Part shown: in pieces, positions 30,499 to 54,400 of the stretch | Layout of the letters: each line of letters opens with the position of its first letter | How positions within the stretch are numbered: the stretch's first letter is position 1 | NCBI RefSeq assembly: GCF_963576615.1 | Contig: NC_088714.1 | Coordinates: forward strand, 42,936,072-43,000,071 | Direction of reading: 5' to 3' | Origin: Watersipora subatra | Lineage: Eukaryota > Bryozoa > Gymnolaemata > Cheilostomatida > Watersiporidae | DNA length: 64,000 nucleotides | Made by a program: the position numbers and the translations under genes | Notes under the pieces: model-generated | What the model saw: only the letters and a program-made list of their open reading frames with translations | Told to the model about the DNA's origin: nothing | Database searches by the model: none

Positions 30499-33400
30499 AC
30501 TTTATAGAGTAATATACAAACTAACTTTATAGTGTAATATATAAACCAACGAACCAATGGTTATTCCAAGATATCAATAGCTATCGCTGGACAAACCGAA
30601 AACAGACGAGAAACTTTGAGAAATATATATATTTATAGACTGAAATAAACTGACAGATGAGCTTATGCGTATACTCGTACCGACAAGTGTTATTTGTCCC
30701 TATAGGTGGATGATGACACTCTGGTAAACCCATTTGCAATGACGAAGTTCTTGAGTGGTCAGACAAAGACTAACATGAAAAAGATAATTTGCAGAATGAC
30801 TAGCTATTCTAAGCCCTATAGGAATCCAGCTAGCAAGTATTATGTCTCTAAGACAGAGTATTCTAATGACACGTATCCATCATATTGTCAAGGTGAGCAA
30901 GTACTCTTTGAAGCTAGATGGCCAATCTCAGACTTCTATTCACCGGTTTATATCAGTGTTATTAAACTCCTCCATATATTCAACAAATACAACTGAGCAA
31001 GCGTATAGCATATTAAACTTGAAAATAAACAGACTGAAATAGCCTATGAGAAAGAGAGAAAGCAATTTAAAAAACCGAACTAATAAAAATCAACTTGCCA
31101 AGGTTCCTAGAATCTTTAACTAACACGACCCGGTCAAATGACATCAGAGTTAAACTTTTAGGTATAAAACAATTTGAGATCTTAAACAAAATCAAATCAT
31201 CTTGAAATTCTGTTAGACTTTTATTTTCAAATAAGGATAACTCTGTATACGAAATAAAAAAGGTGCTGATTTGTAAATTGCATGTATTGCAAAAGTCCTT
31301 TTCCAGTTAATAATTACCAGAACGCTGGAAGAGCAATCATTGCTCCAATAATATTACTTTTGACTGACATTATTTGTCATTGCAAAATTTCTCTAGCAGT
31401 AGCAGATTTTGTGGAAGGGCTTCAACACATTTTCATAAAGCGTGTTTTATGAAACCAAGGCATGTTACACCTAGTTAAATAGTATTACCAATGATGATTG
31501 CCTCTATGTCAGCTATTGTAGCACTATTTCTGTCAATATATGATGGTATCAAGAGCAGTCAAGATGTCTATTTAATGCTATGGATATATAGTGAACTATG
31601 TATTTATATAATACTATGGATATATAGTCAACTATGTGTCTATCTAATACTATGGATATATAGTCAACTATGTGTCTATCTAATACTATGGATATACATG
31701 TATAGTGAACTATGTATCTATATAATACTATGGATATATAGTGAACTATGTGTCTATTTAATACTATGAATATATAGTCAACTATGTGTCTATCTAATGC
31801 TAGGGGTATATAGTGAACTATGTGCCTATATACGTTGTCATGTATGCTCAAATATACATGACAACTATCTAATGGCACGCATGTTTGAGCGAAATCCTGC
31901 AAACATACATGACTCCGCTTCACCATAAACTATCTCTGTTTTACATCAAGCAAAGGTTTCTGTGTTAGTTTGTTAATCTGAATGTCTGTAACTGAACTGA
32001 CTCGATAGTAATCTAAGAAGATGACGGATAAACATTAAACATGAACTTACAAAAAATTTTAGAAGATTTTATCAAAAAGTGTCGGTATTTTTTTATCATT
32101 TGAGATTGTTTTTGATGTTTGTGGTGATTTGATTGCCAGGATGTTTCAAGATTAAAATCGATAAAACTTTAGCACGACTAAAACGCTCAGAAGAAAAATA
32201 TGTGCCGCAATGACATCACTAGTTGCACGGATGACTGTCTCTATCATTATTTATATCAACTATTATGTTCAAGTTGCAGCATTACACGCCTCTATTCTGC
32301 CAGTCTGTTTGCTGAAGTTCAACTATAGGTGTCATTATTGCACTTCCGCTTGAATCTGAGCGTTCTAAGAAAGAATATCATTCAAACTATTATATCTCTG
32401 GACTGACTAAGTCTACATCTACAAATATTACATCAAATTGAATATTGATGTCCTAGCTTTAAATTGATACCCTTCTAATTTTCATCACTTCAATGGTATA
32501 AGCTCACTTTTAAAACTGGGTGCAGATAATGAGATCTTTTGCTGCGCCTCCAAGACATTTACGAAAGACACTTCACGAGGCTTTAGAGGTCTAATCATAA
32601 TTAACCATTTCCTTTCAAAGGCTAGCTTCAACGCTAACATTACTAGCCAGCATACCTTCTTTGCCTCCGGGTAGTCGATAGCAAACATGGTATATCTTTG
32701 CTTCATCTTGCGTCATCCGCTTGCTTGGCCAACCAACCAGATAGTATGAACAATTGTCAAGCTTTGCTCCAGAGTACACACACAAAAAATTTATAGAATG
32801 ACTAGCTAGGTGAGTGCCCAGCGTTGCACCAGTAATAAAAATGTTTTTGCACAAAAAATTTATTTTTAAGCAACATATGCAACACTTACCATTCTAACTT
32901 TTAAATGAAGATGTTTTGCTTATTTTTGTGTACTGTGTTTATTTATGTAAACTGTGTTATTTCTGTGTAATCATACTGTAAAGCCTGCAGTGCCTACTAC
33001 AGGTCTATACTGATTGCGATAGTCTTGTTGGTCATATGAGTTTAAGCAATTTTCTTCTGGTATGGCTTCACGCATACCGCCAGTTGCAGCGTTGAGCGTG
33101 AAGCTAGAAAAGATTGGCATGTGTAATAAGCATGTGCCAATTTATTCCATATTACAGCCAGTTGGACAGTGTAGTATAATGGATAAATGTCTGCTTGCAG
33201 AACTTGAGGTTGTGAGTTCAAATCCAGTGCCCAGCATATTTTTCATTCTTTAAACTTTATCTATATAACTATACACACGAACAGTTAGACAAATGTTGAG
33301 ATTTATATAGATATGTGATTATACTCATATCTACACTTCATGTAGAATGCAATTTTGAAGCAAATGAGCAAAAATGGTTCAAATTAACATTTTATTGTTT

Positions 33401-36400
33401 TGAAATGATTTGTTGAAGAATGAGTGAATCAATCACTCCTATGTGATTGAGAAAATGTAGCACTTGGAAGAATGCAACAAAAGACAGTTTTATTTGGCAA
33501 GGGGTGCTCAAAGTACGATGAAACTGAAGCTAAAGGTGCATTTACACCAGGGCAATTTATCAGAGTTGCTTTAACTCCGATAGAGTCTGAGTTGGAACTG
33601 CTTCTAGTCTGTTTACGATTTGAAATACGTTTTTGCAGAGGCTTTTACACCGGACCAACTCCAACTCCGATTATACAAAATGGGTCACTATTTTAACCAA
33701 TTAAATACAACATCCATACCTATTCCATTTTGACTAAAGCCTCACCATTGATGCATCTCACGCCCACACTGCTTCTTACAGTGATTCTTATAGTAATAAT
33801 AGTAGTAATTCAGTTCGTCTAAAGTAAATTTTTGCAATGATGGTACAAGACAACAACGATTTGCCACTATGTTGTGATGAAGATTAGAAGAATTGAATTG
33901 AAGATATTTTAGATGAAGTCAAAGAACAACAGGTATGTAGGCATATTTTAATTTTGATATATAGTCTATTGTTTATGCTATTCATATCATAAACATTCAA
34001 TTTAATAATATTGTTCATGTTTTTATATCATTGTTTTAATTCACATAATTTTATTAATTGTCACTGTACCCGGTTAAACACACCGTTGGAGAATTATTGA
34101 TTATTATTATTCTGGAAAATATTTCCTCGACTTGTGATCCAAACCGACCTTTTACTTGATTCTACTACTGCATGTTTTGTGTATCTGTAGGAAGATTTGA
34201 AAAAAGTAAACCATGGGTCGGTTCAATCACTGGATCACGTACCATACATGTCGCTTTTTATTCAACTGTGCCAAAGCTAATTGCTGCTACTGGCAATGAC
34301 AAGCTACCATCCAACCGGGTTGTCACATTCCAAAATTACTTTTGATTGTCTAAGGAAGAGTTTCGCTTAATTCTGTCAAAAGTGGAGCTAGAAATAAAGA
34401 AGCTAGATACCCACTATAGAGAAGCTATTACTGCAGAAGAAAGATTGATGATAACACTGAGATATTTAGCTACCGGCGCTAGTTTAACTCAGCTGCATTA
34501 TGAATGGTACATCTCAGTTGCTAGCTTATCACAAATAATTCCCGAAACTTCAAGAGCAATCTACAATTGTTTAAGAGATGATTTTATTAAAACTCCATCT
34601 AGTGTGCAAGAATGGCTTAACATCTCCAATAATTTGGAACAGAAATGGAATTTCCCAAATACCATTGGTGCCCTTGACGGCAAACATATCATGATGAACA
34701 AGCCTGGCATGCTAGGTCTGAGTACCATAACCACAAAGGGCAGGAATAAATTATCTTGCTGGATATGTATGACTCAAACTACTCTTTTAGGTATGTTGAT
34801 GTTGAGGCACAAGGTCGAGCTTCAGATGGGGGTGTTTTTGAAGTGAGTAAGCTGCAGGCAGCATTGAACAGCAATAAAATTAATGTACCGCCTGCTCACT
34901 TGCTGCCAAGGTGTAAAGAACCTTTACCTTATGTAATATTAGCCGATGAGGCATTTTCTTTAAAGGCTCACTTGATGCGACCATATCCAAAAAGTTTTGA
35001 CAGACGAGAGGATTTTTTATTACCCTTGTCACAGGTTAGAAGACTAATCGAAAACTCTTTTGGAATTTTCTCTTCGACATGGAGAATTTTACTCCATCGC
35101 ATTGACCTTGAACCAGATAACACTAGAACCATTGTATTGGCTTGCTGCGCTCTTTACCTCGACAACCGTGTGATCTAGGTGACACTATACCTAGTGTTGA
35201 AGCTTGATCCATAAGACCAACTGAAGATGCTAGGTTGATTTGGGAACAGTACTGTGATTATTTCAACAAAGATGGAGCAGTCTGATAGACGAGAGAGTAA
35301 GCATTGTCACAATGATACAGGTAAGCTTAATTAAAAATATTTTATAACTAAGCTGCTTGAAATTCATCTCTTGTGTTTTGACATTTCTCATCAGCAATTT
35401 GTGCACGGTGATACAAATAATTGCAATTATTTTAAAAATCTTCACATGGTTGATGTGTAGTTTGGTGAGCACATCTAAAACTGTCTATTGCAGTAGTGAA
35501 TGAGAATTACCTATGTTCTAGATCTGTCAAGCAACGGTAACACAGTCATGGTTTGATGAATTATTATTATATTCGATGTACATCAACCCACACTACAGGA
35601 GCTCATTTTATGGCAGCAGTTATGGTGTTTGCCATCTACTATACAGCAGTTAAACATCTGGCTCAATGGTACAGACAGTGTCTAAAGTGCATGTTTATTG
35701 AATATTGAGTCCTATTGATTTGTGTAAAAAGCATCACAAGCTAATGACGTATACAGTGGTGTGCAAAATAAACTGGATGTCTTTTTCTGGGAAACTAAAA
35801 TTCTCATTTACAACACTGTTATCCAGTGTAAATTAAGTCCATGGCCGTAAACTATATATATATATAATTAATCCTCTTTTTGTCCTTATTTCAAATATAT
35901 AAATGAAGCAGATGTAAAATTATATTTTTTAATAATTATGTAGGCTATATTCTGACCATTTCAATATTTTGAAATGTTGAAGATTAAAAATATGAAATGT
36001 TCAGAATTTAGCCTACATAATAATTTAAAAACACAATTTTACAACTGGTTTATTTACATATTTGAAATGAAGACCAAAAAAGAACACATTTAATTTATGG
36101 CTATGGACTAAATGCACAGTGGGTAACCATACTGTAAATGAGAACTTTAGCATTTCAATAAAACGTTCCAGTTTATTTCGCACAAGGCTGTAGTAGGTAG
36201 ATGAAATCTTTTCACAGTACAATACAATGCAGTACAACTGTTTGTTGTGAAAATAAAAACTGAGCCTATTATTTAGTTACCAGGCAAAATAAACATGATG
36301 TGTCTCGGGTCAGTAATATGTGCATGAAGTGCATAAAGCTTGCAGGAAATATAAGCTTATGATTATATAAAACTTGCTGTTGTTACTATATTACTGAATA

Positions 36401-39400
36401 GCTCGGATAACTGTCTGCTTCAGTTGATTGAGCACATATAGGAGTCGGTAGTCGTTCTTAAAACTGAGCCTCATGGAGAATTCCTTGGATCTTCAACAAT
36501 GCGATCGAGGCTGATTGTTTGTTAGGAATTTTTCGGAGCTGCTCAGCAATCATCTTGCCAGCATAATCAAACTCGTCTAATTTTTTTTGCACCTTAATCA
36601 TGTTATCGGTTATAGACTGTAGTGCTTCATCTCTAACTTCGTCGGGCTCTGACCTCTTGCGCTTGAGCGACCGGGATGCCTGAACTGAAGTTTCAGGTTT
36701 AGGCGCACTTTCATCATTGAATTCCGCGAGGTTGGGTGACATGACAATTGATTCAGCTAACACCGATGAATCAGTTGGAGCTGACTTCTCCATGTCAGCC
36801 TGACTTGCTGAGTCTGCGGGTGCTGAAAAAAGATGACTAACATGAGTTATTTGTAGATTTGTCATACAATAGCGTGGATATTGGTAAATGTACCATGTAC
36901 AATTTATAAAATTCTGTAAATGAACTACGTACTGTCAGGGTTTGAAGCAATAGATGACCAAAAGTCAAAAGAAATAATAAATTGTGGGATCACCTAATAC
37001 CACAACTGCTGCAAAACATTGCAGCAAGCACTGTGATGCATCAATAAGCAGACATGAAATATATGGCAATTGCTATGCTGCTGGAAATATCAAGCATGGG
37101 AGTTGTCCAACTATCATAGCTGATGCAATGTGAATATATGGGACATCATTTCGATTGGGAGTTGTCTGACCATTATAATGAAAAGCTTAATGAATGAAAA
37201 ACAGCATAAAATTGTTACTAAATCACGATTATTATTGATCAACACCACTTAATATGAAAGAGACTAACTAGTTACAACAATTATTAATGGATATTCAGCG
37301 AAGCAAACAACTCTACAGAGTATCAGGCAAAAATGGAGGTATATCGCCAATATTACAGGAGCCAGCCACATTAATGACTTGTTGGAGCGAAGAAGCAGCT
37401 GGCGTGCACCAGATCAGCAACCAGCCATCAGTGAAAGAATCATTTACAACACTTTATTTAGTATATTTAGTTATAGCTTATAACATCATTATAGTCTAGA
37501 AAATGTTGTATTGTAGAGCAGTAGAAAAATATAGCATAATTATTCATTAACTCAGATATTGTATTTTATGAGAAAATATCGACGAAATGGTTGTACAAAG
37601 AATGGCATAATATTATAATAGTTTCTCTTGCTTCATATAAATTAGCTAGCTAATAGCGTCTTAGAACGAGGATTACTGTAAAATTAATTTTATAATGCTG
37701 CCATTGTTAGTTTTTGAGTTATGGCCAGTTTTGTACAATTTGTTACCGGACTTAGAATATTTTTCACTTCTCATTCGCTTGTCGTCATGGAATCCCAACC
37801 ACAGTAAGGAATTTTAGCTCACCGCAAGGAATCTGAAATATAAATTAAACAAAAGCTTACGCAAAGACCACAAGTAAAACACAACCAACCAATGACATTC
37901 GACAATGGCTCAAGGACAAGTATAAAAGAGGGGCAAAATCAAGGGAAGAGCAGGAGAAGCTGGCAGCGAGCCAGACGATAAAGGGGCGCCGCAAGGAAGA
38001 GCCAAGATAGGAGGATTAACATAAGCCCAAGATAGCCAAGGAGCCAGCAGCAACCAGCTCGCCGAGGATAGACTCAACAAACACGATTCACCCAAAAAGA
38101 GGTGGCAAGCCAGGAAGCCATAAAGCCCTGAGAGAAGAAAGTTAACTCAGCCGCCCCTGTTTACAGTAAGAGCTACTACTACACGCCTAACAGATACGTA
38201 CTCATTTAACCTAGTAAGGCCATAACAAATAGGGCTAAGCATATTGTTATTTTTGCTTGAGCTAGTAAGCCTTGACAGAATAATTGTTATTTTGACCTTT
38301 GGAGGAAAATAGAGTTTGCAGACACATAGAAACAAACCACTGGCGTGTTATTGTCAATTATAAGATAATTACCTGCAGAGAGTTGCCTACAAGAGATAGT
38401 AGGCCTCATAATCTCAATAATACTTGATACTTGGGCTCATTGATACAGCAACGCCTTACTGTCAAAACAAAATTGCAAGGATAACTATAGTAGTGCCCAT
38501 CTCCATTGATTGAGTTGGTATTTCAATTTTGCTTTATAGCAACGGTCTGATTTTCTGGGGCAGAAGTGCCACTTTGTCTGCGGTCAAAATTTGTCTTGGG
38601 AGAAATTGAACTCAAGGTCCAGAGGCTAACCATTACACATAGAACCATAAAACCATAGAACCATTGTAGTATTTCACTCAAAGGAAACTCACAAAAACGA
38701 TACATTTCATATTATTATTTAAATATCAAATTATCATCATTAGCTTACTTTTTATATTCATTATTATAATAAACTTCAAATAAATATAATAAATTAAAAA
38801 ATTATTAAATAACAAATTTCTCCCTTGACAAAGTGGAGCTTGAAACCCGAGATTGAATCGAACATTTTTATTTGAAAAAAATTTCTGTTTGGATTTAATT
38901 ATCTAGTTTCAGGATATATTACTTTGACGCTACATATCTTTAATTCTTTCTGAAACATTATTTTGATATTACTAACAAACAAAAATAGCTTTATTAATTA
39001 ATCAGTACCGCTTTAAATATTTGATCTGTATTTTGCATATTATATTAAGCTTATGCCATTATGAGCCGACTACGAGAGACAGCTAAATATCTAATAGGAG
39101 TACAGCCTCCAAGAAATAGAAGGAGCAGGAGTGAGGAGCCAGCAGAAGAAATGCAAAGGAAGCGTGAATCAGAAGCACAAGCAACTAAAGAAAATAGAGA
39201 GGGCAGCGAAATGACTACTGAAAACTTACAGCAAGAAGAAGAGCTTCTCCAGTTAGCTGACAGACAAGGTCAGTTGGAGACACACAATAGAGAGAGTGTG
39301 AGCGATGAGACGTTTGTTACTTTGGATGAGTATAGAGCTCAGCACGAAGACGCAGATCCCTTTGCTTCGACTTCAACAATACGGAGGGCACCTACTGCCA

Positions 39401-42400
39401 GACCACCTGCAATAGAAAACAGCGATGATGATGAGGAACGCAGAGAGCAAGCGATGTTAGCACAACCATCAAAGCGTAGAAGTGACGCTACAGCCATAAA
39501 CAAGGCAGCAGAGCTAGCAAGATACAATGACTGGTTAAATAGATTGACATGTGATATGCTCGGGGATGAAGATCGCGGAGCCAAACACCAGAGCTTCAAA
39601 ACACACACGAGAGTAAAGCAACTTGAGCGTCATGCTGACTTGTTCTCACCACCCTTGCATATAAGCACAGATGATGATGAAATACCAATTTCGAGACAAG
39701 GATTATCCCCAGCGTCCAGTTACAGAGAAATAGACCAAACGCCACAAGCAATGCAGAGACCTTTAGCAAAAAGCATTTTGGCAAGTTATAATGCTAAGGA
39801 TAAAGACAACCTACAAAATAACAGAAAAGAAAAGCACTCACAAACCAGCCCACCAACAACTCGCATACTATTTAGTGACGATGCAATCATAGTTAGTGAG
39901 GAGAGCTCAGACGAGGAGAGCTGCACATGCAAAAGCGTAGAACCCAGCAAGCAAAAGCACAATATCAAACAAAACCATTTTGAAATAGAGAGTAGCAGAG
40001 CAATTAATAATAAACATGACTTCACACAACAAGCAGCTGACACCCAGCAACCAATACAAAATTATAGAGAAGAAAGAGCGAATAAATATGAAGAACAGCT
40101 AGCTCACCACAAGAAAGGACGGCTTCTACAGAACATGGGAAACCCACAACACGAGAAAAAACTGAATGAGCAACGAGAATGGCGAAGGACACAAGAACTC
40201 ATGCCGGAAGAAGTGCGAGGCAAAAGGTCAGAGATGAGCAACCTAAACTTACATAGTGAGAATTATTACAAGAAAAACAACCCAAAACTAACATGGCCTT
40301 ATGGATTGGAGAGATATGAAGAGTGCAGAAATCAGTCACCATGCGCAGAAAGGAGACAACTTCCAAAAGATTGGCTAGAACTAGGACACCAAGAACAAGT
40401 AAAATTTGATGAAGAATGCTACCAGCCTCGACAAGCAATGTGTTATGATTATCAATGCGATGTAACACCAAGGAAAAGCATACTCAAACCAAAGCAGTAT
40501 CACATGGCCGAAGCAAACAATGAGTATGGTAGAGCATTAGATCAAGAGAGGAGACAACTCCTACAAGAGCCATACTCAACAAGATTTGAAAGACTTGAAC
40601 AAGAGCGGTTAGCATGGCTAGAAGAGCAAAGACAGCGGGAGTTGAATGAGGAAAGATTACGCTACAAACCACACCAGAAATTAAAGATGAGACAGGGAGT
40701 AAACTATCCGGAGTGTGAGATGAAACATAGCCAGCGAGGGATGCAATTGGGAAGAGAAGCTAGACCAGAGCAAGACACGTGTGAATCAACACCTTGGCTC
40801 AATGCATCAAGCCAGAAGCATTATAGAAAAAACAGTCAGCCATTACAGGAGCCATGGGTGCCTTACTACGAATCTGACAGCTCTGACCTAGATTATTGTC
40901 AAAATAAACGAACACAAGGACTGCCTACCAAACGAATACCTGCAAAACAAACAGTGGAACAATCAAATAAGCAAGCCACAAACATAATAAATGTAGCCAC
41001 AAAACTACCCGAAGTAGAGAAGTTTTCAAATGGACCCTCAGCAGAAACCACCTTCAGTGAATGGACAGACAACTATGAGCTTAATTGCCAAGCCCTGAGC
41101 ATTCCACGAGAAAATTGGGGAAAAATACTTCCACTGTATCTCACCGAAGGTGCTCTCATCACTTATCGTAATATAATAGCAAGGAACCCATACATCAAAG
41201 AAAATTACAGCCTGCTCACAGCTGAACTTGCTGAAGAATTTGCTGTAACAGATGGAATAGCAAACTCAGTGGACCTAAATAACAGAATAAAGCAGGAGTC
41301 TGAAAGCATTGGTAAATATTATGCCAGCATCACCACTATGGCTAAAAGACTCTTTCCCACCATGAATGCTGATGCACTAGACCAAATAATATTATCATCA
41401 TTTGTTCGAGGCCTGCCAGTGACTTTCAAGAGGGGCTTGCTAAACAATCCTAGCATCAGCACAGCAGATGGCGCTTTCAAGGCAGCACAGAGGATGGAAA
41501 AGACCAATGCTATCCTACTTAATGAATCAGCACATGCAAATGTTAGCGTAGTAAGTCGTGACATACGACAGGAAGAGCAACTGGAAGCAATTAAACGAAG
41601 CCTGAAAAACCTGGAGCTAAGAGAAGCTGAAAGAGTAGCCGAGAATAGAAGCAGAAGGAATGACAATAACAACTGGTTCGAACGAGATAGGAATTATGGT
41701 GGCAGTGCGGCAACTAACACAAACTGGAGAGACAGAAGATGGAACAGGCCAATGGGCAGACAATTCCATGGCAGCTATAGAAATAATCAAGCAGGATACT
41801 CTTCAGGTCGAAGATTTAATAATAATTGGAGAAACCACAGAAATGCCAACTTCTCTAGAGCACCTCAGAGACAATCATGGAGAGAGAGCCAGATGCTAAG
41901 AGCTCGGGAGCACAACCGCCAGCATGAGGGACAAGAGTTCACAATGGATGGGCGACCCATTTGCCGAAATTGCAATAACATCGGACATCAACACTATTTT
42001 TGCAGAAAAACAGTTAATTCTATGCCAGCGGGACAGCCAACTCAACAACACCGCATGGTACGCTTTGAAGACACCAGAAACCAATCTAGGACCGCCAACA
42101 ATGTCACTAGCCACAGAGCTCAAGATATTAACAGGACAAGAACGGTGAACATCGTAGATCAAGACACGCCTACATCAACAGCTCAAGCAGAAGTAAATTC
42201 CAAAGAAACAACAGCTGAAGAGCAGACAAATCCACACCCAGATACAGAACAACAGTTGGATATAGATAGAAATGCTGCTCAGGACAACTGTGAACCTGTA
42301 GATGAGCCTGAGATAGATGAGCAACTACAAGAATTCCTAGATTGGGTTGTAGAAAATGAAGTTCACAGGCTAGACACGGAACACAATACTACACAAACTG

Positions 42401-45400
42401 CAAGTGATGAAGAATGGTATAACCTATTAACATGGGTGAATGAATGCAACACATACGAAGAAAACTGGGATCAATTATATGAAGCAGAACTGACACAGCT
42501 AGAGATGGACATAGAAGATATACTTAATGCAGAAAGTACAGCGACCGAGAGCCAGATAATAGAGGATGAACAACAAAATATTGCAGAACAAGTTTACGAT
42601 GACAGAGAAGTAAGGTGGACAACAGATGACACAATAACGCAAATCAACATCATACAGAAAAAGTCAAAACGATCTAAAGCAAAAGACAAGAATCACAAGA
42701 GGCAAGAGCAAAGATCAGAACACCAACCTGGATATCCTAACGGCTACATAAGGAAACCACCATTACATCCATACGGTGTTCTCAATGACTTGGATACTCG
42801 CATGGCGCAATTGTGGATCAGAGAGAGTTCTAATAGCCAACATACAAGTAGAGAAGATGATGACGATACAAATACACACCTTTGTGATCTTGTAACCACG
42901 AAATGTAAGACAACTTATCCAAGAGCCCACCAAGATACAAACCTAAAAAGGAAAAATTCTACACAAAGAATTGAAGAACCAAAGCAAAAGAAGAGGAAGA
43001 GAAATGCAGTCAATAAGATGACTAAAGCCCAGCTGCAACATGACGCCATTGCAGAGAAATCATTACAGACATCTGACAATCACACAGTCCCTGATGAGCA
43101 AACCACAGGCATACCAGACTATCCACAGGGACTCTCATGCCCACCCTTGAGAAGTAGAAAGGAGACATATGAAACCTCAAAAGAACCAATAGCACACAGC
43201 AAAGTAAACAAGCATTATCCATCAACTATTGCTACCACAGAAGCAAAAGAACTACAGCAACTAACGGAACAAACTAAAACACCTACATGCGAAGCACCAG
43301 GAAGTGCTAAAGGGAGGACTTTTGAGGTACAAACATTACCACGGAATAACAATGTTCAACTCAGCCCAAGCCCAATGACAGGAAGACTGACAACCATTTT
43401 GAAAGAAGCAGGAGGCCCAATTGCTCTGGCAACCATAATTATTCTGATTAGCAGCCTAATTGGAAAAGCGAAAGCATACCCAGACCACCCCATGCTATGC
43501 CACACAGCAAATGACCCACGATCACACCCACATCTAATACTGGACCTACCTGACGAAATAACATGCTCCAAACCAAAGGAATCCACAGATGATGTAACAC
43601 CCTTGAATCTACAAATATACAAGACAACAACCTTAATCCTGGCAAACAAAGCATACATGTGCACAAAAAGAGTAACAACTATACAAACACTGTTATACTT
43701 CTTCAATGATGAAAGGCTGACAAAAAGCGAAACTACTTACAACCCTGTATCACCTGAACTATGCTGGAACATGGTACAAACCCAACAGATGGAAGGACAG
43801 AAATTATATGAGAAACATGGTGTAATATCAACACATTATTCTACTACCCCTGAATACCAATGGTGTTGCACATGGCGGACAAAGACCGTGGTCAACTATG
43901 ATATCACCCCAGGAAATGTTTATTTTCACAGAGACACCAAAGTGCTACAGTCAACACTAGCTAGAGTTTCTAAATGTGGTTTTGAAGACATGGCTTGCAC
44001 AGTAGAAGACAGTGGAGTTGTGGTTTGGAAAGGAAACATAACTGATGAATGTATACTCAAGGAATCAATAATTATCAAAGGATCGAAGAGTGGAGAACAT
44101 TGGGTATCTAATGACCAGAACATGGTGCTAACTTTCACTGACAGCAAATGGCAAAGCTACCAGGTATGCGCGCACAGCAATCCAGATTTATGGCTCATTA
44201 AATCAGACCAAGGCATATATGTCAAGAATACTACAGCCATTCATGGAGTTAAATCAGCTCACCACAAAAGTAAGACAAGACAAGACCTAAAGGTGCCATA
44301 TGTAACGAGTTTGGTGATGGGCGAAATAGAAGCGATAGCCACCTCACTATCGAACAGGATTAACAACGAAACGAGAAAGTTATTCTGGCAAAGTGTGAAT
44401 GCGCTTTGCAACCATGAGAAAATTGCCCTTATGCTAATTTCCAAACTAATGCTAGGGGAGCCGACGGCAACAGTAAGACAGCTAATTGGAGACGATTACA
44501 TAACAGCCAAAGCATTGACTTTGAATAACCTAGCAGTATATGGATGCCACAAGCTTAATGACTCACAATATTCTATCGGAATCTTAGAAAATAGCACCAG
44601 TACGGAGAGATGCAGCCCATGGCTGCCAGTAATTGTTACTTACGATGCATTTAAACAGACACAAATGTACATGGACCCTCTCACCAACATTCTTCACAAA
44701 TATCACCCTATGAAACAATGCAGAACAAATGAGGTGATCTACTACACCCTTAACCAAACATTACACACTTTTGAATGGAACGAAAAGAAGATAGAGAGAG
44801 TTAATGATACTAATAATGATACAATGGAGAATCTACTTCACCACAAAGTGACTTATAACGACAGCAAACTATTGATATACCGAGAAAGAGTTGGACTATT
44901 TACCCTCGAAGATATGCAACCAGATAGTTCCATTCTAGGAGGATTCATAGAAGCTATCCAAAGAGAAAGACAACAAGCAAAGGAAATAGGAATATGGCCA
45001 GTTGGACCAGGAACCACAGGAAACAGTTCGTTACCTTTTCATATTGGTAAGCTTCGCTTATTTGACTGGATTCAAGGCGGATTTATGAAATTCATGACAT
45101 TCTGGAATATAGTTTGCAACTTAACAGTGACCTTTATAATCATCAGAGTAATTATTTCGATTGGATCAATAATGACGCAGAAGAATTTTTCACAGACAGG
45201 CCCAGCAATCAGACACTATTTTAATGGAAACGACAGTCAGAGGAATGCCATCAACACACTGACGCCACGCATTTTTATCCAAGATTTGACAGAGTCAAAT
45301 TGCCCGTATGATGTGCCGCTAATTGAGGGAAAACTGAATGATAAACCTATAACAATCTTTTTGGACACAGGCAGTACTATGCACATTATTAGTAAGGAAA

Positions 45401-48400
45401 TGGCATCGGAGCTAGGACTCAGTGTTCGTAAAAGTGATGCTACAGCAACGGTTTTTGGTGGAACACGAGTAATATTTGAAGGAGAAAGTGATGTAACACT
45501 GACTATCGGAAGCAAAACTATTAACATCACAGTTACCATAACCAAGACATCAAGTAATAATCTGCTGCTAGGATTTTCAGCTTTTTGGCAAATGGGAGTA
45601 ACAAGCTTTGATATCAAGAACGGAAATATGAATATAGATGGAGAAGATATAGAACTAATCGCTCGATTATCCAACACAAAAATTGCTGGAATGATAGATG
45701 AAGGAGCAACATCAACTGATAAAGCCGATACTGAATTACCACAAGACATCACACAGCACAATACGCTATTACAAACTATGGAGGAGTATGGAGACGAGGA
45801 TGAGCTATATATACCAAAACCTTATCAACACGAAGTTACTGATGAGCAACTAATGAGTTCCTTAAATATCCCATGGACAGAATACAGCAAAGAAGAGCAG
45901 TTAGACATCAAGTCACTGATAATTGAAAACAAAGATGTTTTTCTCACCGGCGGACTGAAAGCTCTAAAAGCAACGTCACTATATTCACCAGTACTAGATA
46001 CCGGTGATGGCAAACCAATCTTCATGAGGCCATATCCTATTAATCCACTACTACAAGAGAAAGCTGACCAGCTAATACAAGAATTACTGGAAGCCGGAGT
46101 AATAGAGCACTCTCATTCTAACTGGCAATCGCCATCTTTATTTGTACCAAAGAAGAATGGAAAGGAAGTCAGACTGGTTGTTGACTACAGAGCACTAAAT
46201 AAAATGTGCAAGAAAGCACCGAGTGACTTACCTCTAATTGGAGAGATCAATTATCATATGGCTGGGAATGCTTTGTTCTCATCCCTAGATGCAGCATCAG
46301 GATTCTACGCGCTGCCATTACAAGATGAAGAAACCATGAATAAAACAGCATTTGCAGTATATGGGAACCATTCACAGTACCGCTTTAAGAGGATGCCAAT
46401 GGGACTTTCCATTTCACCAGGAGCTTTCCTACAAATAGCAAATATTGTGAAAGCACAACTACCACCAAAGAACTACCAGTGCTACATAGATGACTGGATT
46501 GTGGCAAGCCCAGACAACCTGCATGACCACATAAAACTGCTACAAACTTTATTCGACAGATTTAGAATGGCAGGACTCATGTTGAAACCACAAAAATGTA
46601 ATCTATTTCAAAAACAAGTTGAGTTCCTAGGATTTGTCTTGGCAAAAGAAGGATTGACACCAGATGACAGAAATGTTGAGAAGATCAAAAAACTAGCGCC
46701 TCCCACAACAAAAAAATTGCTTCGCGGATTTTTAGGTCTATGCAGTTTCCTAAGACGATGCATTTATAATTTTGCATCCATCTCTAAACCTCTCACAGAA
46801 TTACTAAAAGCCGAAGCTAAATTTGAATGGAAATCAGAACAAGCCAAAAGCTTTGAAGCACTCAAGAAGGCCATAACATCGCATCCGTGTATAGCGCATC
46901 CTAGATTTGATCGCCCCATTCTAATCTACAGTGATGCATCAAAAGGCGCTATTGCTGGAATGTGTGCGCAGAGAGACGATGACAAAGCACTACACCCGAT
47001 TGGATACTTTTCCAGAAAACTCTCCAGAACAGAGGCTAATTATCCAATTTATGAACTCGAAGCACTGGCCACAGTTGCATCCCTAGAGCATTGGATGTCC
47101 CTTACTAAACATATGGAGGTGCACTGCTACACTGACAACATGGCATGTAAGACTGTGTTAGACGCATGCACTAAACAACCGACAGCCAGAAGAGCGAAAT
47201 TAGCAGCTAGATTTGGCCAGTTTGATAATGTGACAATCCATTACATCGAAGGCGAAAGGAACCGAGCAGCCGACTTCTTATCCCGCATGGACCAACCAGG
47301 GGAACAAAAATTGAATGAGCACGCATCTCCAAATACTACAGCACAAATTATGAAGGAAACTGCTGATCAGCACAATGGGTTAATATCAAGAAAATGCAAT
47401 CTACAGGTAAGCATTATAGATAATGAAGAAACAAGAGAGGATGATATATCAGAAGAACAACCAAAAAAAGAAGAGCAGAAGTTTGAGTTCCTAGCACAGT
47501 TAATTGACAATGAGATGATAGTTGACAAATTCCGAGAAGGAATAATGGCCGACGACTTCTACGGCGTCATATTAAGATATCTGGAGAGAGGCCAGATGGA
47601 TTTTGACCTGACGGTACGATTACGAAATCTGTTTAAAGATGCGGCAAATAAATACAGGACCCGCGAACGACTTTTGTGGTATGTTTCTAGAGAAGATGAG
47701 AGATTACGTTTGGTTGTACCTACAAACTTACGAAAGCTAATTTTACAAACAATGCATTCAAACCTTGGAAGTTGCCACCGTGGAGTAATTGCCACGATAG
47801 CTGCTGTAGCCCGGCATTTCTTTTGGAGAACATTGACTGAAGATGTCAGGAGCTATATAGCCGACTGTCAGATCTGTGGCATGGTGAAGAGAGCGCCTCA
47901 CCATATCAAACCACATATGAAGCACTTGCCAGTAACTGAGCCTTTCGCGAGGTGGAGTATTGACTGTTTACAAGATCTGAAAATCACACCAAACGGAAAT
48001 AAGCACATACTTGTATGCATAGAAGCTGTGACAAGAACTATGGTAGCAGAACCAATTAAAGATCTGACTGCAAAGACTATAGCCTACACCTTGTTCAGTC
48101 GGTTATTTTGCGTATACGGATTTCCGCGAGAAATCAGAAGTGATAACGCTACATCTTTCCGGAACAATATTATGACAGAGCTAGAAAAGCTAGTAGATCT
48201 AGAACACAGTTTCACATTAGCTTATGCATCCCAATCAAATGGAATAGTAGAACGTGCTATACAAACACTTCAGCGAACTCTTCAGTGTTATTCTACCGAA
48301 GCACAGAGTACATGGGATTTCTATGTACCAGCAGCAGTGTTAGCTCATAATACTACCATATGCCGATCTAATTCAAGTTTTGAAGACACACCATTCTTTC

Positions 48401-51400
48401 TGACTTTCGGAAGAGACTGCAGGGTGCCATTATTCAATCTGCTCGGTGAAGCTGCACCACCAAACGTAAATGAAAGGACACATCTGACTGACGACTATAG
48501 AGAGGACTTAGTGCTAAGAATTCGGGAAGCGATGGAAAGGGCATATCAGACACATGAGAAAATGAATAAACGGTACAAGGAATATTATGATCGACAAGCA
48601 ACGGATATACCATTCAAAATAGGAGATAGATGCTACCTATTCAGACCAAAGATTGGCAAAAATTGCAGCCGCGCCCTCTCAAGCCAATACCTGGGCCCGT
48701 TTCGTATTTTAGATCTAACAGATGTCATGGCAAACATAGTGCCGTGTATCGAGCCCTATGCAAAACCGAAGTGGGTTTCAATAAAGCGATTAAAACTTGT
48801 ACGTGAAAATTTTTCACCCTCGTACAAAACCAATGCACAGGAGACACCAGATTTAGAAGAAGATACAAGTTCTGAGGAGTGGGAGAATGGTGACTATATG
48901 GAAGAAGAGTACGCAGCCAATGATAGGAACAGGAGACAGGATCAGAGTTTACCGCGACCATCGTACCCACCGAGTAGCCCACAGAACCCGGATGAAATAG
49001 ACGAAGCACTAGAAGGAAGACAGTATTATATGTCTGAAGCGACAAATGATGTGCAGCCGAAAGGCGGGAGTTATGAAGAAACCCTACCAAGAAATACGTC
49101 AACAACAAACAGAAGGTATGAGCTACGAAGCCGTACAAAAAATAAGCGTATGCAAGATTATGTTTACGACGATGAGGGAGAGTATGAATGGGAATAGCTT
49201 ATAACGCCCAGCTCTACACATATATCAACATACCAACGAACCAAAAAAAAATTTTTCAAACACAAAACCTACCAAAAAAGGATGCTTTACGGCTTGATCC
49301 TATAGCAAATATACAACTAGATATCTATCGACAATTGAACATGTACGGATCCCTAATAATTATAGGCAACTTACGCAAAATAATAAGCAGATATAGACAT
49401 ATATCCAATACGAATGACCCTCGCGATGATATGAGGGGCCGATATAGACAACCTTGAAAGAACGATCATAACAATTAGCTACGATACAACCTCTTCAGAG
49501 GTCAAGATATATCTGATACAGATCATTCGTGTTATTCCTACTGCGAAGGCAAGCTACCCAAACGATGGAGAGCCCTCCAATGGCTAGCGTACAGTATAAT
49601 TAATGACGAATGATGAACAAGGCGATGCGATAAGACACGCCCATTATAGAGCTCACTATAGCCTAAACAAAGGCATGACAGAGAAGTGAAAACAGCAACC
49701 GCTCTGGTATGTCGATGACTAATATGTAATTATTAAGTGATCATGGATATGCACAGCAGAATAGACATGGTGGGATGGTAATTATAAACAAGATACATAT
49801 ATTTCAACATGGCATGTGAATTTAGAAACACAAAGAAAAGGGCATAGCAACAGTATGATTGAAAAGAAGAAGCAGTTAACACAGTCAATAAGGGCGAGCT
49901 CTAGAACGAGGCCTTCTTAGTACATCTGAAGAGCCTGTGGAAGGTGATTGGGGAGGAGTACGATGAATTATATGAGCGCGTGGGCTGGGCAGTGGTCGCC
50001 CACCCCGCATTAGGACTAGGCTATCAACGAGTTGTTGATGAATATCCTCCATGCTGTCATTTGTATTGCTTGCTTGCAATCTTTGGCCAGTGACTCCGGA
50101 AAGTAGACGGTCTGAAACAGGAGAATGAGAGTGAATGGAATGACGGATAAAATCAAATCATGAACAGAAGAGGGATGAGGAAATCAAGAGAAGAAAACGA
50201 AATAAAATCAGGAGTACTTACAATGGCCAGTCCCATTGTGACGGCCTAGGATGGGTAGCATTTCAGCTCGGCTGGCCAACAAAGGCTGCAGGGTGTCCGT
50301 CACTAATAGGTAGTCGATGGCACCCCGCAGTGTGCTCCAAAACACTCTCAAGGCGTGTAAGGTTGTTCCATGATAAGGGTGGCTATCACGAAAATTGGTA
50401 CGCCTCCTAGCGTAACCATGAGAGGCCACAAGCTACAAAACATAATTATGCCATTCAAATAGATGCAAAAAAAAAAAAAAAGAGAGAAAGGACGTGATAG
50501 CGTGACAACCAATTATTAGAGGATTAAATACTGATGAAAACACGTGAAAATTAAGTGTGGAAGAAGATTAGATATCTTACCTCTAAAAAGGCGGATAGTT
50601 GTACCAAATATAGAACAGCCAACAGAGAAGGACCGTGTTCCTCAGCAATAACTACTGGGATACTTGCCCGACATTCAGGGCAATGAATTTCGTTGCGACG
50701 GTGCGAAACGGCCTCCGCAACCAAGGCCTCGTGGCAGCGGGAGCAGACGCTATGGCCACAGCGATAGACGCAACGCCGAGTCACACCCTCAACGGTGCAA
50801 ATATGACAATTAAAATCTGCCATCCTTTCCAAGAAGATATCAAGAGAAACAGGTATGGAGAGACAAGGAGGACAGGGGCCTTTTATAGTAAATGGTCATG
50901 ATGGAGTTGCCAATAATAACCGCAGAAATATAAGCCAGGGTCTGGCTTCACCTGAGGGCCGGTATGTGTCAGGGTTTGAAGCAATAGATGACCAAAAGTC
51001 AAAAGAAATAATAAATTGTGGGATCACCTAATACCACAACTGCTGCAAAACATTGCAGCAAGCACTGTGATGCATCAATAAGCAGACATGAAATATATGG
51101 CAATTGCTATGCTGCTGGAAATATCAAGCATGGGAGTTGTCCAACTATCATAGCTGATGCAATGTGAATATATGGGACATCATTTCGATTGGGAGTTGTC
51201 TGACCATTATAATGAAAAGCTTAATGAATGAAAAACAGCATAAAATTGTTACTAAATCACGATTATTATTGATCAACACCACTTAATATGAAAGAGACTA
51301 ACTAGTTACAACAATTATTAATGGATATTCAGCGAAGCAAACAACTCTACAGAGTATCAGGCAAAAATGGAGGTATATCGCCAATATTACAGGAGCCAGC

Positions 51401-54400
51401 CACATTAATGACTTGTTGGAGCGAAGAAGCAGCTGGCGTGCACCAGATCAGCAACCAGCCATCAGTGAAAGAATCATTTACAACACTTTATTTAGTATAT
51501 TTAGTTATAGCTTATAACATCATTATAGTCTAGAAAATGTTGTATTGTAGAGCAGTAGAAAAATATAGCATAATTATTCATTAACTCAGATATTGTATTT
51601 TATGAGAAAATATCGACGAAATGGTTGTACAAAGAATGGCATAATATTATAATAGTTTCTCTTGCTTCATATAAATTAGCTAGCTAATAGCGTCTTAGAA
51701 CGAGGATTACTGTAAAATTAATTTTATAATGCTGCCATTGTTAGTTTTTGAGTTATGGCCAGTTTTGTACAATTTGTTACCGGACTTAGAATATTTTTCA
51801 CTTCTCATTCGCTTGTCGTCATGGAATCCCAACCACAGTAAGGAATTTTAGCTCACCGCAAGGAATCTGAAATATAAATTAAACAAAAGCTTACGCAAAG
51901 ACCACAAGTAAAACACAACCAACCAATGACATTCGACAATGGCTCAAGGACAAGTATAAAAGAGGGGCAAAATCAAGGGAAGAGCAGGAGAAGCTGGCAG
52001 CGAGCCAGACGATAAAGGGGCGCCGCAAGGAAGAGCCAAGATAGGAGGATTAACATAAGCCCAAGATAGCCAAGGAGCCAGCAGCAACCAGCTCGCCGAG
52101 GATAGACTCAACAAACACGATTCACCCAAAAAGAGGTGGCAAGCCAGGAAGCCATAAAGCCCTGAGAGAAGAAAGTTAACTCAGCCGCCCCTGTTTACAG
52201 TAAGAGCTACTACTACACGCCTAACAGATACGTACTCATTTAACCTAGTAAGGCCATAACAAATAGGGCTAAGCATATTGTTATTTTTGCTTGAGCTAGT
52301 AAGCCTTGACAGAATAATTGTTATTTTGACCTTTGGAGGAAAATAGAGTTTGCAGACACATAGAAACAAACCACTGGCGTGTTATTGTCAATTATAAGAT
52401 AATTACCTGCAGAGAGTTGCCTACAAGAGATAGTAGGCCTCATAATCTCAATAATACTTGATACTTGGGCTCATTGATACAGCAACGCCTTACTGTCAAA
52501 ACAAAATTGCAAGGATAACTATAGTAGTGCCCATCTCCATTGATTGAGTTGGTATTTCAATTTTGCTTTATAGCAACGGTCTGATTTTCTGGGGCAGAAG
52601 TGCCACTTTGTCTGCGGTCAAAATTTGTCTTGGGAGAAATTGAACTCAAGGTCCAGAGGCTAACCATTACACATAGAACCATAAAACCATAGAACCATTG
52701 TAGTATTTCACTCAAAGGAAACTCACAAAAACGATACATTTCATATTATTATTTAAATATCAAATTATCATCATTAGCTTACTTTTTATATTCATTATTA
52801 TAATAAACTTCAAATAAATATAATAAATTAAAAAATTATTAAATAACAAATTTCTCCCTTGACAGTACCTTCACTAGGCATCTCAATACTGGACTCAGTC
52901 TGATTGACATGCACCGTCGCGGAAAGAAACATTAGGCTGGTGTAATATGGCCAAGATGGTCGATACGTATCTCCAGCCCCAGACCCCTGGGAACTGAGCA
53001 TCTTTTTATACTGTTTTACCCAGTATGTGCGTAGTCCTTTATACTTGGCTTTGACAATTTGAACTAAAATGATACTAAACAAAATAAATTTACAAATTAA
53101 ATCCTTGTGTAGGTAAAAGTGGGTGGTCTGTAAGAACACCATCAACATCGATGAAAGTAGGTTGCAGTTTGGTGCGGGTTCAAATAAAAGCGTTTATTAA
53201 TAAATTTGTTGTAATAAAACTATGCCTACATCATAAACATTAATAATGTTTAATTACTAAGTGTTTACTACCATTGCCAGATCAGCTGTTTGCACTATGA
53301 CATTGCACTGCTCACTAGTGCTAGTCCTACTAACCCCCTACTAACCTGTACTGTTCATCGACTTGGCTAGATCCACAAATTGTTCTTGAGCACGTGCCCG
53401 TGAAAAATGATTCGCATGGTTCCATATATATATCCGTGGTTCCAACTCTGCAATTAGCTGCTCAATATTGATAGATTTTAATGCTAGTTGGAGCTGATCT
53501 TCAGGTAAAACGGAATACACATCCATTTTTTATGCTTACGTTTCCCGCGCTATTGCAAATTTTGGCAATATTGCGAGATATGATTGGTCAATTTATTGTT
53601 GCACTCCGCTAAGGGCCGCCGTCAAAATCGGACAAATATACCGGTAGCATAGAATTATCTTCCCTAGAGTGATAACAGTGCCTTCAACAACACGAGCGTT
53701 TTCGGTGCCAACAAGGAGCGTTTAGGTCGCGCCCCTTTTTTGGGCTAGTCAATCGTAGTGATTGACTAGATCAGGGGTGGGCAAATTTTTTTCTCAAAGA
53801 GCCAAATTTCAATGTTGCAAGTTATTTGGGAGCCGCATAATATGTGTTTTATGTATAACATTTCATACTGATAATACAAGTTTGGTAGTTGTATTGTAAT
53901 TAAATTTATTCTCTAGAATACTTTTACCATAGCATTGAATAATGTTGAAGTAAGCTTAAAGAGCATTGTATAACTTCAAGTTTAGTGGGATACATGGAAT
54001 TATTTACGGCTGCTCATTATCTCTTGGTAATCTGGCTCTCTACTGCAGCATGCTATTCTTAGGAGCTGACACAGAAGATATTGAGTCAAATTGGATCTCA
54101 ACTTGCTCTTAATATTATTCATGTATAAAAATGCTGATTCACATAAATATGTGGCAGCAAACACAGTGTGCAACCATTTTCCTAGTTGAGCAAGCTGTGG
54201 ATATTCAGCCTTTGTTGAAGCTTTTAAGTGAAGCCCTTCCCAATTTCATCTAAATCTGTACCTTTGAGGTTACACAACTCCAGTTGCAGAGATGAGACAT
54301 TAACCCTCTTCAATGGCAACTGAGTAACCCACTCTCCATTAGGCTTTGCCTTCTGATGTGCTTTTATGAGTTGTATGATGTGTTTCAAAGATTGAAACTA

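Follow-up and report, generated by a model that had tools for sequence, protein, structure and literature searches.

Genes encoded on the strand opposite to gag and pol are already known from plant retroelements and from deltaretroviruses. In plant Ty3/gypsy elements, antisense additional open reading frames (aORFs) lie between pol and the 3' long terminal repeat (LTR), as in Grande (gene23), RIRE2 and Retand (TRP28), and the Grande frame is served by a promoter of its own and its product is nuclear, according to the accessible sections of two reports (PMC7264820, PMC11963269). Here we describe a comparable gene in an animal. In the window, a 64,000-nucleotide stretch of chromosome 7 (C7) of the red ripple bryozoan Watersipora subatra (NC_088714.1, positions 42,936,072 to 43,000,071 of the forward strand), a Ty3/gypsy-type LTR retroelement of 15.9 kb (36933-52864, plus strand) carries on its minus strand, between pol and the 3' LTR, a three-exon gene (49885-50887 including its TATA box) for a predicted RING-finger protein of 226 residues. 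Judging from the letters of this locus and of its relatives, it is very probably a selected, spliced accessory gene of the retroelement lineage. Like the plant aORFs, it has this place and strand and is kept in most copies, being found antisense downstream of pol, as a gene or its remnant, in five of the six loci with a sizeable pol among the matches listed. The plant frames code for TRP28 and a few other domains, with no RING or intron mentioned in those sections, whereas the bryozoan gene has three exons, a RING and an animal host; the TRP28 domain of the Retand lineage (PF04195) was absent, as was any bZIP domain, from the Pfam matches up to E 1 of both the window protein and P0122, its homologue from chromosome 10.

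The gene also resembles HBZ of HTLV-1 and APH-2/3/4, which are likewise antisense, spliced and near the 3' end, and which act in trans on virus expression (PMC10186651, sections consulted). The HBZ promoter lies inside the 3' LTR and its product is a bZIP factor, with no RING named in the same sections. In contrast, the bryozoan TATA box (50880-50887) is outside the LTR, which begins at 50967, 79 bp from its edge, and the two introns interrupt the coding frame itself. A further likeness is to the planarian Burro elements, giant and gypsy-like, in which an env-like region is part of one huge ORF and ubiquitin-linked accessory domains occur; the in-frame env between Gag and Pol was called a first for these elements (PMC6431247, in the parts available). 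There the accessory domains belong to the sense polyprotein or to an upstream accessory ORF of an element longer than 30 kb, unlike the 15.9-kb bryozoan element with its RING as a separate antisense gene; its own env-like region, in frame between Gag and protease, recalls Burro by architecture only, with no match to a known Env in Pfam or the PDB. In LTR elements of bdelloid rotifers, ORF3 is similarly an accessory ORF expressed as a separate transcription unit with spliced messages, and encodes env, GDSL, DEDDy and other products; neither a RING nor an antisense gene is mentioned in the available portions of that report (PMC5408684). The W. subatra genome (783.70 Mb, 11 chromosomes, longest scaffold 79,350,317 bp, chromosome 7 of 66.31 Mb, a poly(A) RNA-seq library; PMC12902671, in part) and LTR elements as a class in a bryozoan genome paper (PMC13326412, in part) have been treated before. 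No description of an antisense RING gene in an LTR element was found in the open full-text literature, parts of which were consulted, a scope outside which most subscription papers fall; within it, an antisense RING gene of three exons appears to be new for an LTR element of animals.

The original prediction, made from the window sequence alone, had placed three minus-strand exons with GT-AG sites and matching phases between pol and the 3' LTR, and every coordinate was confirmed. Exon 1 (50581-50823, 243 nt) encodes all eight ligands of the predicted C3HC4 RING (C6 C9 C22 H24 C27 C30 C48 C51) and is followed by intron 1 (50433-50580, 148 nt, GTAAGA...TTGTAG, phase 0), exon 2 (50222-50432, 211 nt), intron 2 (50112-50221, 110 nt, GTAAGT...TTTCAG, phase 1) and exon 3, which includes the stop (49885-50111) and encodes a basic C-terminus rich in serine, proline and arginine. 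The proposed TATA box was also located: TATAAAAG lies on the minus strand at 50887-50880, 64 nt ahead of the ATG; when the 143 nt preceding the ATG were shuffled by mononucleotide 5,000 times, this octamer arose in 6 cases. The motif CTATAAAAGG is exact in five of 11 copies compared (the window, C8a on chromosome 8, two on C11 and the C10 copy), has one mismatch in three and two or more in the last three, two of which have other upstream sequence. Unspliced, the minus strand of the gene has stops in all three frames. A plus-strand gene as the source of the conservation is ruled out, given stops in all three plus frames of every exon.

The same plan recurs in a second, diverged element on chromosome 10, whose reverse transcriptase (RT), integrase and pol DNA are 76%, 64% and 69% identical to those of the window and whose LTR pair is 100% identical over 1,193 bp. 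Its RING gene has the same place, antisense strand and exon plan (exons of 234 and 217 nt plus a third, introns of 141 and 163 nt in phases 0 and 1, 222 residues), and intron 1 of the window matches it in phase and corresponding position. It carries TATAAAAGG 100 nt ahead of the ATG and AATAAA 16 nt past the stop. The two proteins are 36-38% identical, and the chromosome-10 RING region has no DNA-level match to the window. The spliced prediction is identical, letter for letter, to P0122, held by NCBI and UniRef as 'uncharacterized protein [Watersipora subatra]'. The recurrence of the three-exon layout and phases at 38% identity, the P0122 match, and the distribution of window-C8a differences over codon positions (21/7/45) together argue that the window gene is not a product of chance.

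Searches of the 783,720,542-base genome returned 17 matches in 14 candidates with the RING gene DNA and 52 matches in 52 candidates with the protein, all of them scored. The surroundings were examined at 17 loci (the window, C8a, C8b, L012, L013, L014, L015, L017-L022 and L053-L056), a sample that excludes four match places, on C3, C5, C6 and C8. Element sequence adjoins the RING gene or its remnant at 15 of the 17, in the form of pol, the non-coding stretch between the pol and RING stops (49198-49884; 91-93% identical beside both chromosome-8 copies), the 79-bp stretch from TATA box to 3' LTR (50888-50966; present beside old relics too) or an LTR; beside L014 and L018 there was none. We counted a pol as sizeable where the RT was at least 76%, or the integrase C-terminus at least 64%, identical to the window, among the best 100 of 6,765 candidates for the RT and the best 86 of 5,486 for the integrase C-terminus. 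The integrase threshold was reached at C7, C8a, C8b, C9 (22.014 Mb) and C10, with the next-best match 29% identical and no other listed row above 37%; the RT threshold was reached at C7, C8a, C10 and C6 (35.17 Mb), with the next match at 35%. Further gypsy families with long ORFs in this genome have RTs 30-35% identical. Downstream of pol, the antisense RING gene is present, whole or in remains, at five of these six loci, a count that leaves out L012 and L055, RING relics beside shorter pol fragments. The gene is thus associated with pol-bearing copies. Beyond this genome, the window RING protein alone had no match among 632 candidates at E up to 10, a weak search that missed P0122 too, and when two RING sequences were combined in a profile, P0122 was the sole match at E up to 1 out of 6,889 candidates, a scope that includes no collection of eukaryote genomes.

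Several old RING relics are clustered on C9 (22.008-22.211 Mb) and C11 (28.395-28.438 Mb), within 0.05-0.2 Mb, and many of them carry LTR or post-pol remains. This points to duplication in place, or to a region that is preferred or sheltered.

Between the window and C8a, the ratio of non-synonymous to synonymous substitution rates (dN/dS) of the RING gene is 0.118 over 226 codons (50.5 synonymous and 22.5 non-synonymous differences), and that of pol is 0.143 over 896 codons. Purifying selection on the RING is like that on pol. Comparison of the window with six other copies gave 0.081-0.273, with dS saturated in some, and with C10 0.305 at a saturated dS of 2.2. The sharing of the gene by two diverged elements and a dN/dS below 1 agree with the original view that it belongs to the LTR retroelement. 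Exons of the window and C8a are 89% identical, and intron 1 alone, at 72%, stands clearly below them. It is also noted that at 50259-50709, across part of exon 1, intron 1 and exon 2, identity between these two copies falls to 76-83%, with flanks at 92-97%; this patch looks like one acquired from a diverged relative via template switching.

The RING of the product has the spacing C-x2-C-x12-C-x-H-x2-C-x2-C-x17-C-x2-C, with eight ligands invariant between the window and C10 proteins, and it is by these ligands, not by profile, that we call it RING-type, as Pfam scores fell under the curated cut-offs (given below). The database annotation of P0122 nevertheless carries PF13920 and PF24921. The searches of profiles and structures that had been proposed for the product gave a divided outcome: the closest solved chains are TRIM RINGs (best 4tkp, TRIM5, E 0.0015), while Pfam stayed below its cut-offs and Foldseek with the P0122 model found no match at E up to 0.001, its first being the TRIM32 RING at a non-significant E of 0.078. 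That model is poor (mean predicted local distance difference test score, pLDDT, 51.5; ten-residue blocks over residues 11-50 average 72-86), and its alignment held exon-1 rows only. The C-terminal 40 residues of both homologues contain 9-13 Arg/Lys and 6-9 Ser.

An element that multiplies by way of an RNA copy is normally unable to retain introns. Splice sites act on one strand only, so that introns read on the minus strand are not removed from the full-length sense RNA; the antisense orientation is used on purpose in the design of retroviral vectors that contain introns. In the account that we favour, a TATA promoter belonging to the gene and adjacent to the 3' LTR would drive its transcription in the direction opposite to gag-pol, and splicing of the three exons in the minus-strand transcript would yield a small RING protein whose basic tail is rich in serine and arginine. 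The sense RNA, once packaged and reverse-transcribed, would retain the antisense introns, and the gene would pass intact through reverse transcription. The expectation that antisense introns persist in this way fits the two elements with identical LTR pairs, both of which keep them. The product would act in trans as an E3 ubiquitin ligase, probably in the nucleus on account of its Arg-rich tail, upon candidate targets such as host silencing factors, restriction factors or Gag/Env turnover, among which the evidence selects none. Without a named target, we consider this account as a whole quite likely; on ubiquitin ligase activity itself we lean moderately in favour, and a role specifically in counter-defence is a tentative suggestion that falls short of an even chance. 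ICP0-type RING ligases of herpesviruses offer a parallel, as nuclear RING proteins from a spliced viral gene that counter host silencing; these belong to DNA viruses and the likeness is an analogy only.

If the product works in trans, parasites of the element that are defective and have no pol would need no RING of their own, and pol-less relatives exist. At four loci (C4:404568-407313, C10:17069739-17071381, C11:15269725-15272407 and C11:12393288-12395970) the post-pol stretch begins about 800 nt beyond the env-like region, leaving no room for pol; none had a RING match in the protein search, which would miss a remnant too diverged for it. These loci are an env-like-bearing non-autonomous family. 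A search with the LTR, of which the best 40 of 736 candidates were scored, showed most listed full-length LTRs to be 91-99% identical and, apart from the window pair, none of those listed within 100 kb of a RING match. Two LTR pairs (C9 and C5), whose starts are separated by 6.6 and 6.7 kb, are too short for a full element; the spacing of a further pair on C6 is 15.2 kb. It seems, then, that pol-less derivatives have spread with neither pol nor RING, as would suit a product acting in trans. The boldest version of our account, in which an animal retrovirus-like element evolved a complete reverse-strand gene, with promoter, two introns and a RING ligase, that would disarm host nuclear defence in trans, its reverse orientation preserving the introns and defective relatives exploiting its product, is one we put forward with reserve and think rather less probable than its negation.

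A number of observations weigh against the account that we favour. In nine copies compared (eight aligned, namely the window, C8a and six others, plus C10), the frame is open with all four splice sites only in the window and C10, and seven are broken; among the eight aligned, the window alone combines an open frame and all four sites with the absence of gaps. In C8a the second donor is gone (GT to AT), and each of the remaining six has 1-5 stops, four of them also with a lost splice site or a GT-to-GC donor. Pairs of decaying copies show high dN/dS (C8a/C8b 1.107, C9 pairs 0.545-0.905, C11a/C9d 0.353), although higher values among recently dead copies are expected once copies decay. The sixth locus with a sizeable pol, the broken C6:35172328 (RT 76%, integrase fragments), had no RING match in the protein search. 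The chromosome-10 element has no complete sense ORF upstream of the RT, with an integrase-like fragment directly before it, and P0122, although an independent call of the putative gene, is known here as a database record alone. Transcription and splicing of the antisense gene are predictions; neither AATAAA nor ATTAAA occurs in the 686 nt that separate the window gene from pol, and intron 2, at 92% identity between the window and C8a, is no more diverged than the exons. Lastly, the window protein scored 16.4 bits against a cut-off of 21 (zf-C3HC4) and 17.9 against 50 (PF24921), and P0122 24.6 against 27 (zf-C3HC4_3) and 29.4 against 50 (PF24921). The original prediction had held that copies lacking the gene, or with broken frames, would speak against it, and in this respect it fared unevenly: most copies are indeed broken and the pol-less derivatives have no detectable gene, but five of the six listed loci with a sizeable pol do have it.

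The same decay, together with the spread of pol-less relatives without a RING and the abundance of RING genes in animals, could be explained if a host RING gene had been captured as a chance passenger of no benefit to the element. Against this stand the shared location, orientation and exon plan of two elements with an integrase identity of 64%, the dN/dS of 0.12, and the finding of no unlinked host copy, element sequence adjoining all 17 examined loci save L014 and L018; we regard such a passenger as very improbable. The conservation of intron 2 at the level of the exons would in turn suit a minus strand that matters as RNA, its transcription regulating the element through double-stranded RNA or interference, and the reading frame being secondary; antisense non-coding transcripts do exist in other retroelements (PMC7264820, in part). 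Against an RNA of this kind speak differences that fall by codon position as 21/7/45, the low dN/dS (0.12), and a C10 protein that is recognisable where the gene DNA no longer is, and this explanation, too, we regard as very improbable. Where the protein is accepted but its chemistry is in doubt, the low Pfam scores and the tail with its Arg/Lys and Ser would be compatible with a RING-like zinc finger that binds RNA or protein, for instance in nuclear retention or packaging control, and is not a ubiquitin ligase. Tails rich in Arg/Lys and Ser occur in RNA-binding or nuclear-localisation regions. The complete C3HC4 spacing and the nearness of TRIM RINGs (4tkp, TRIM5, E 0.0015; TRIM32 by Foldseek at E 0.078, not significant) make this unlikely, yet it deserves to be kept in view beside the E3 ligase that we favour.

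The locus has several implications. It suggests a way for a retroelement to carry an intron-containing gene, since the bryozoan element keeps two of them in a coding gene under selection simply by way of antisense orientation. It would also add an animal LTR element, with a RING protein, to the plant elements and deltaretroviruses that have antisense accessory genes, and the two intact copies, with a public protein record, provide a handle on the possible use of ubiquitin by retroelements against invertebrate hosts. For annotation it is a warning, as the chromosome-10 copy is listed in databases as an uncharacterized protein of the animal.

With respect to the element itself, its 5' LTR (36933-38830) and 3' LTR (50967-52864), both on the plus strand, measure 1,898 bp each, have the form TGTCAG...TGACA and are 100% identical, with zero mismatches, and the target-site duplication GTAC flanks them on the left (36929-36932) and on the right (52865-52868). 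An LTR element is identified by a pair of LTRs that have TG...CA ends and are flanked by a short duplication of the target, and the lack of any mismatch, with GTAC at both flanks, makes the insertion look young. The order protease, RT, RNase H and integrase, obtained with Pfam on pieces, is that of Ty3/gypsy. All these domains belong to a single sense ORF (39061-49197; stop-to-stop frame 39049-49197, 3,382 codons), which runs from Gag through the env-like region to integrase. Its recognisable parts, all on the plus strand, are a Gag domain (41125-41415; PF03732, E 0.0036, under the curated cut-off), a CCHC knuckle (41962-42003) between Gag and the env-like region, an aspartyl protease (45322-45585; PF13975, E 3e-12), RT and RNase H (46147-47109; PF00078, E 2e-25, and PF17919, E 4e-29) and the zinc-binding and core domains of integrase (47716-48225; PF17921, E 4e-14, and PF00665, E 5e-9). 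About 660 residues (39061-41040) ahead of the recognisable Gag domain had no Pfam match. The best match to pol, an axolotl protein (E 5e-183), was rejected as a close relative; its score is high because several RTs, each about 29-33% identical, are contained in one predicted protein, which had no env-like match.

Two hydrophobic segments bound the env-like region (43408-45165, plus strand), which is situated between Gag and protease; a count over 562 residues gave 15 Cys and 11 N-glycosylation motifs. Pfam returned nothing up to E 1 and the PDB nothing meaningful, so the label refers to architecture. Homologues of this region, 21-28% identical and from other lineages, lie just upstream of the RT on the same strand at many gypsy loci genome-wide. 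When 63 of the 81 listed env rows were paired with 48 of the 100 listed RT rows, both picked by hand, 30 pairings within 4 kb were found, the window and the broken C6 locus included, and 26 of the 30 were 1.37-1.56 kb apart. An env upstream of pol therefore seems common in the W. subatra genome.

Just upstream of the element, overlapping frames at 34346-35178 include a DDE_Tnp_4 transposase domain (34750-35175, E 9e-16), and a tandem array with units of 36-42 bp occupies 31531-31868.
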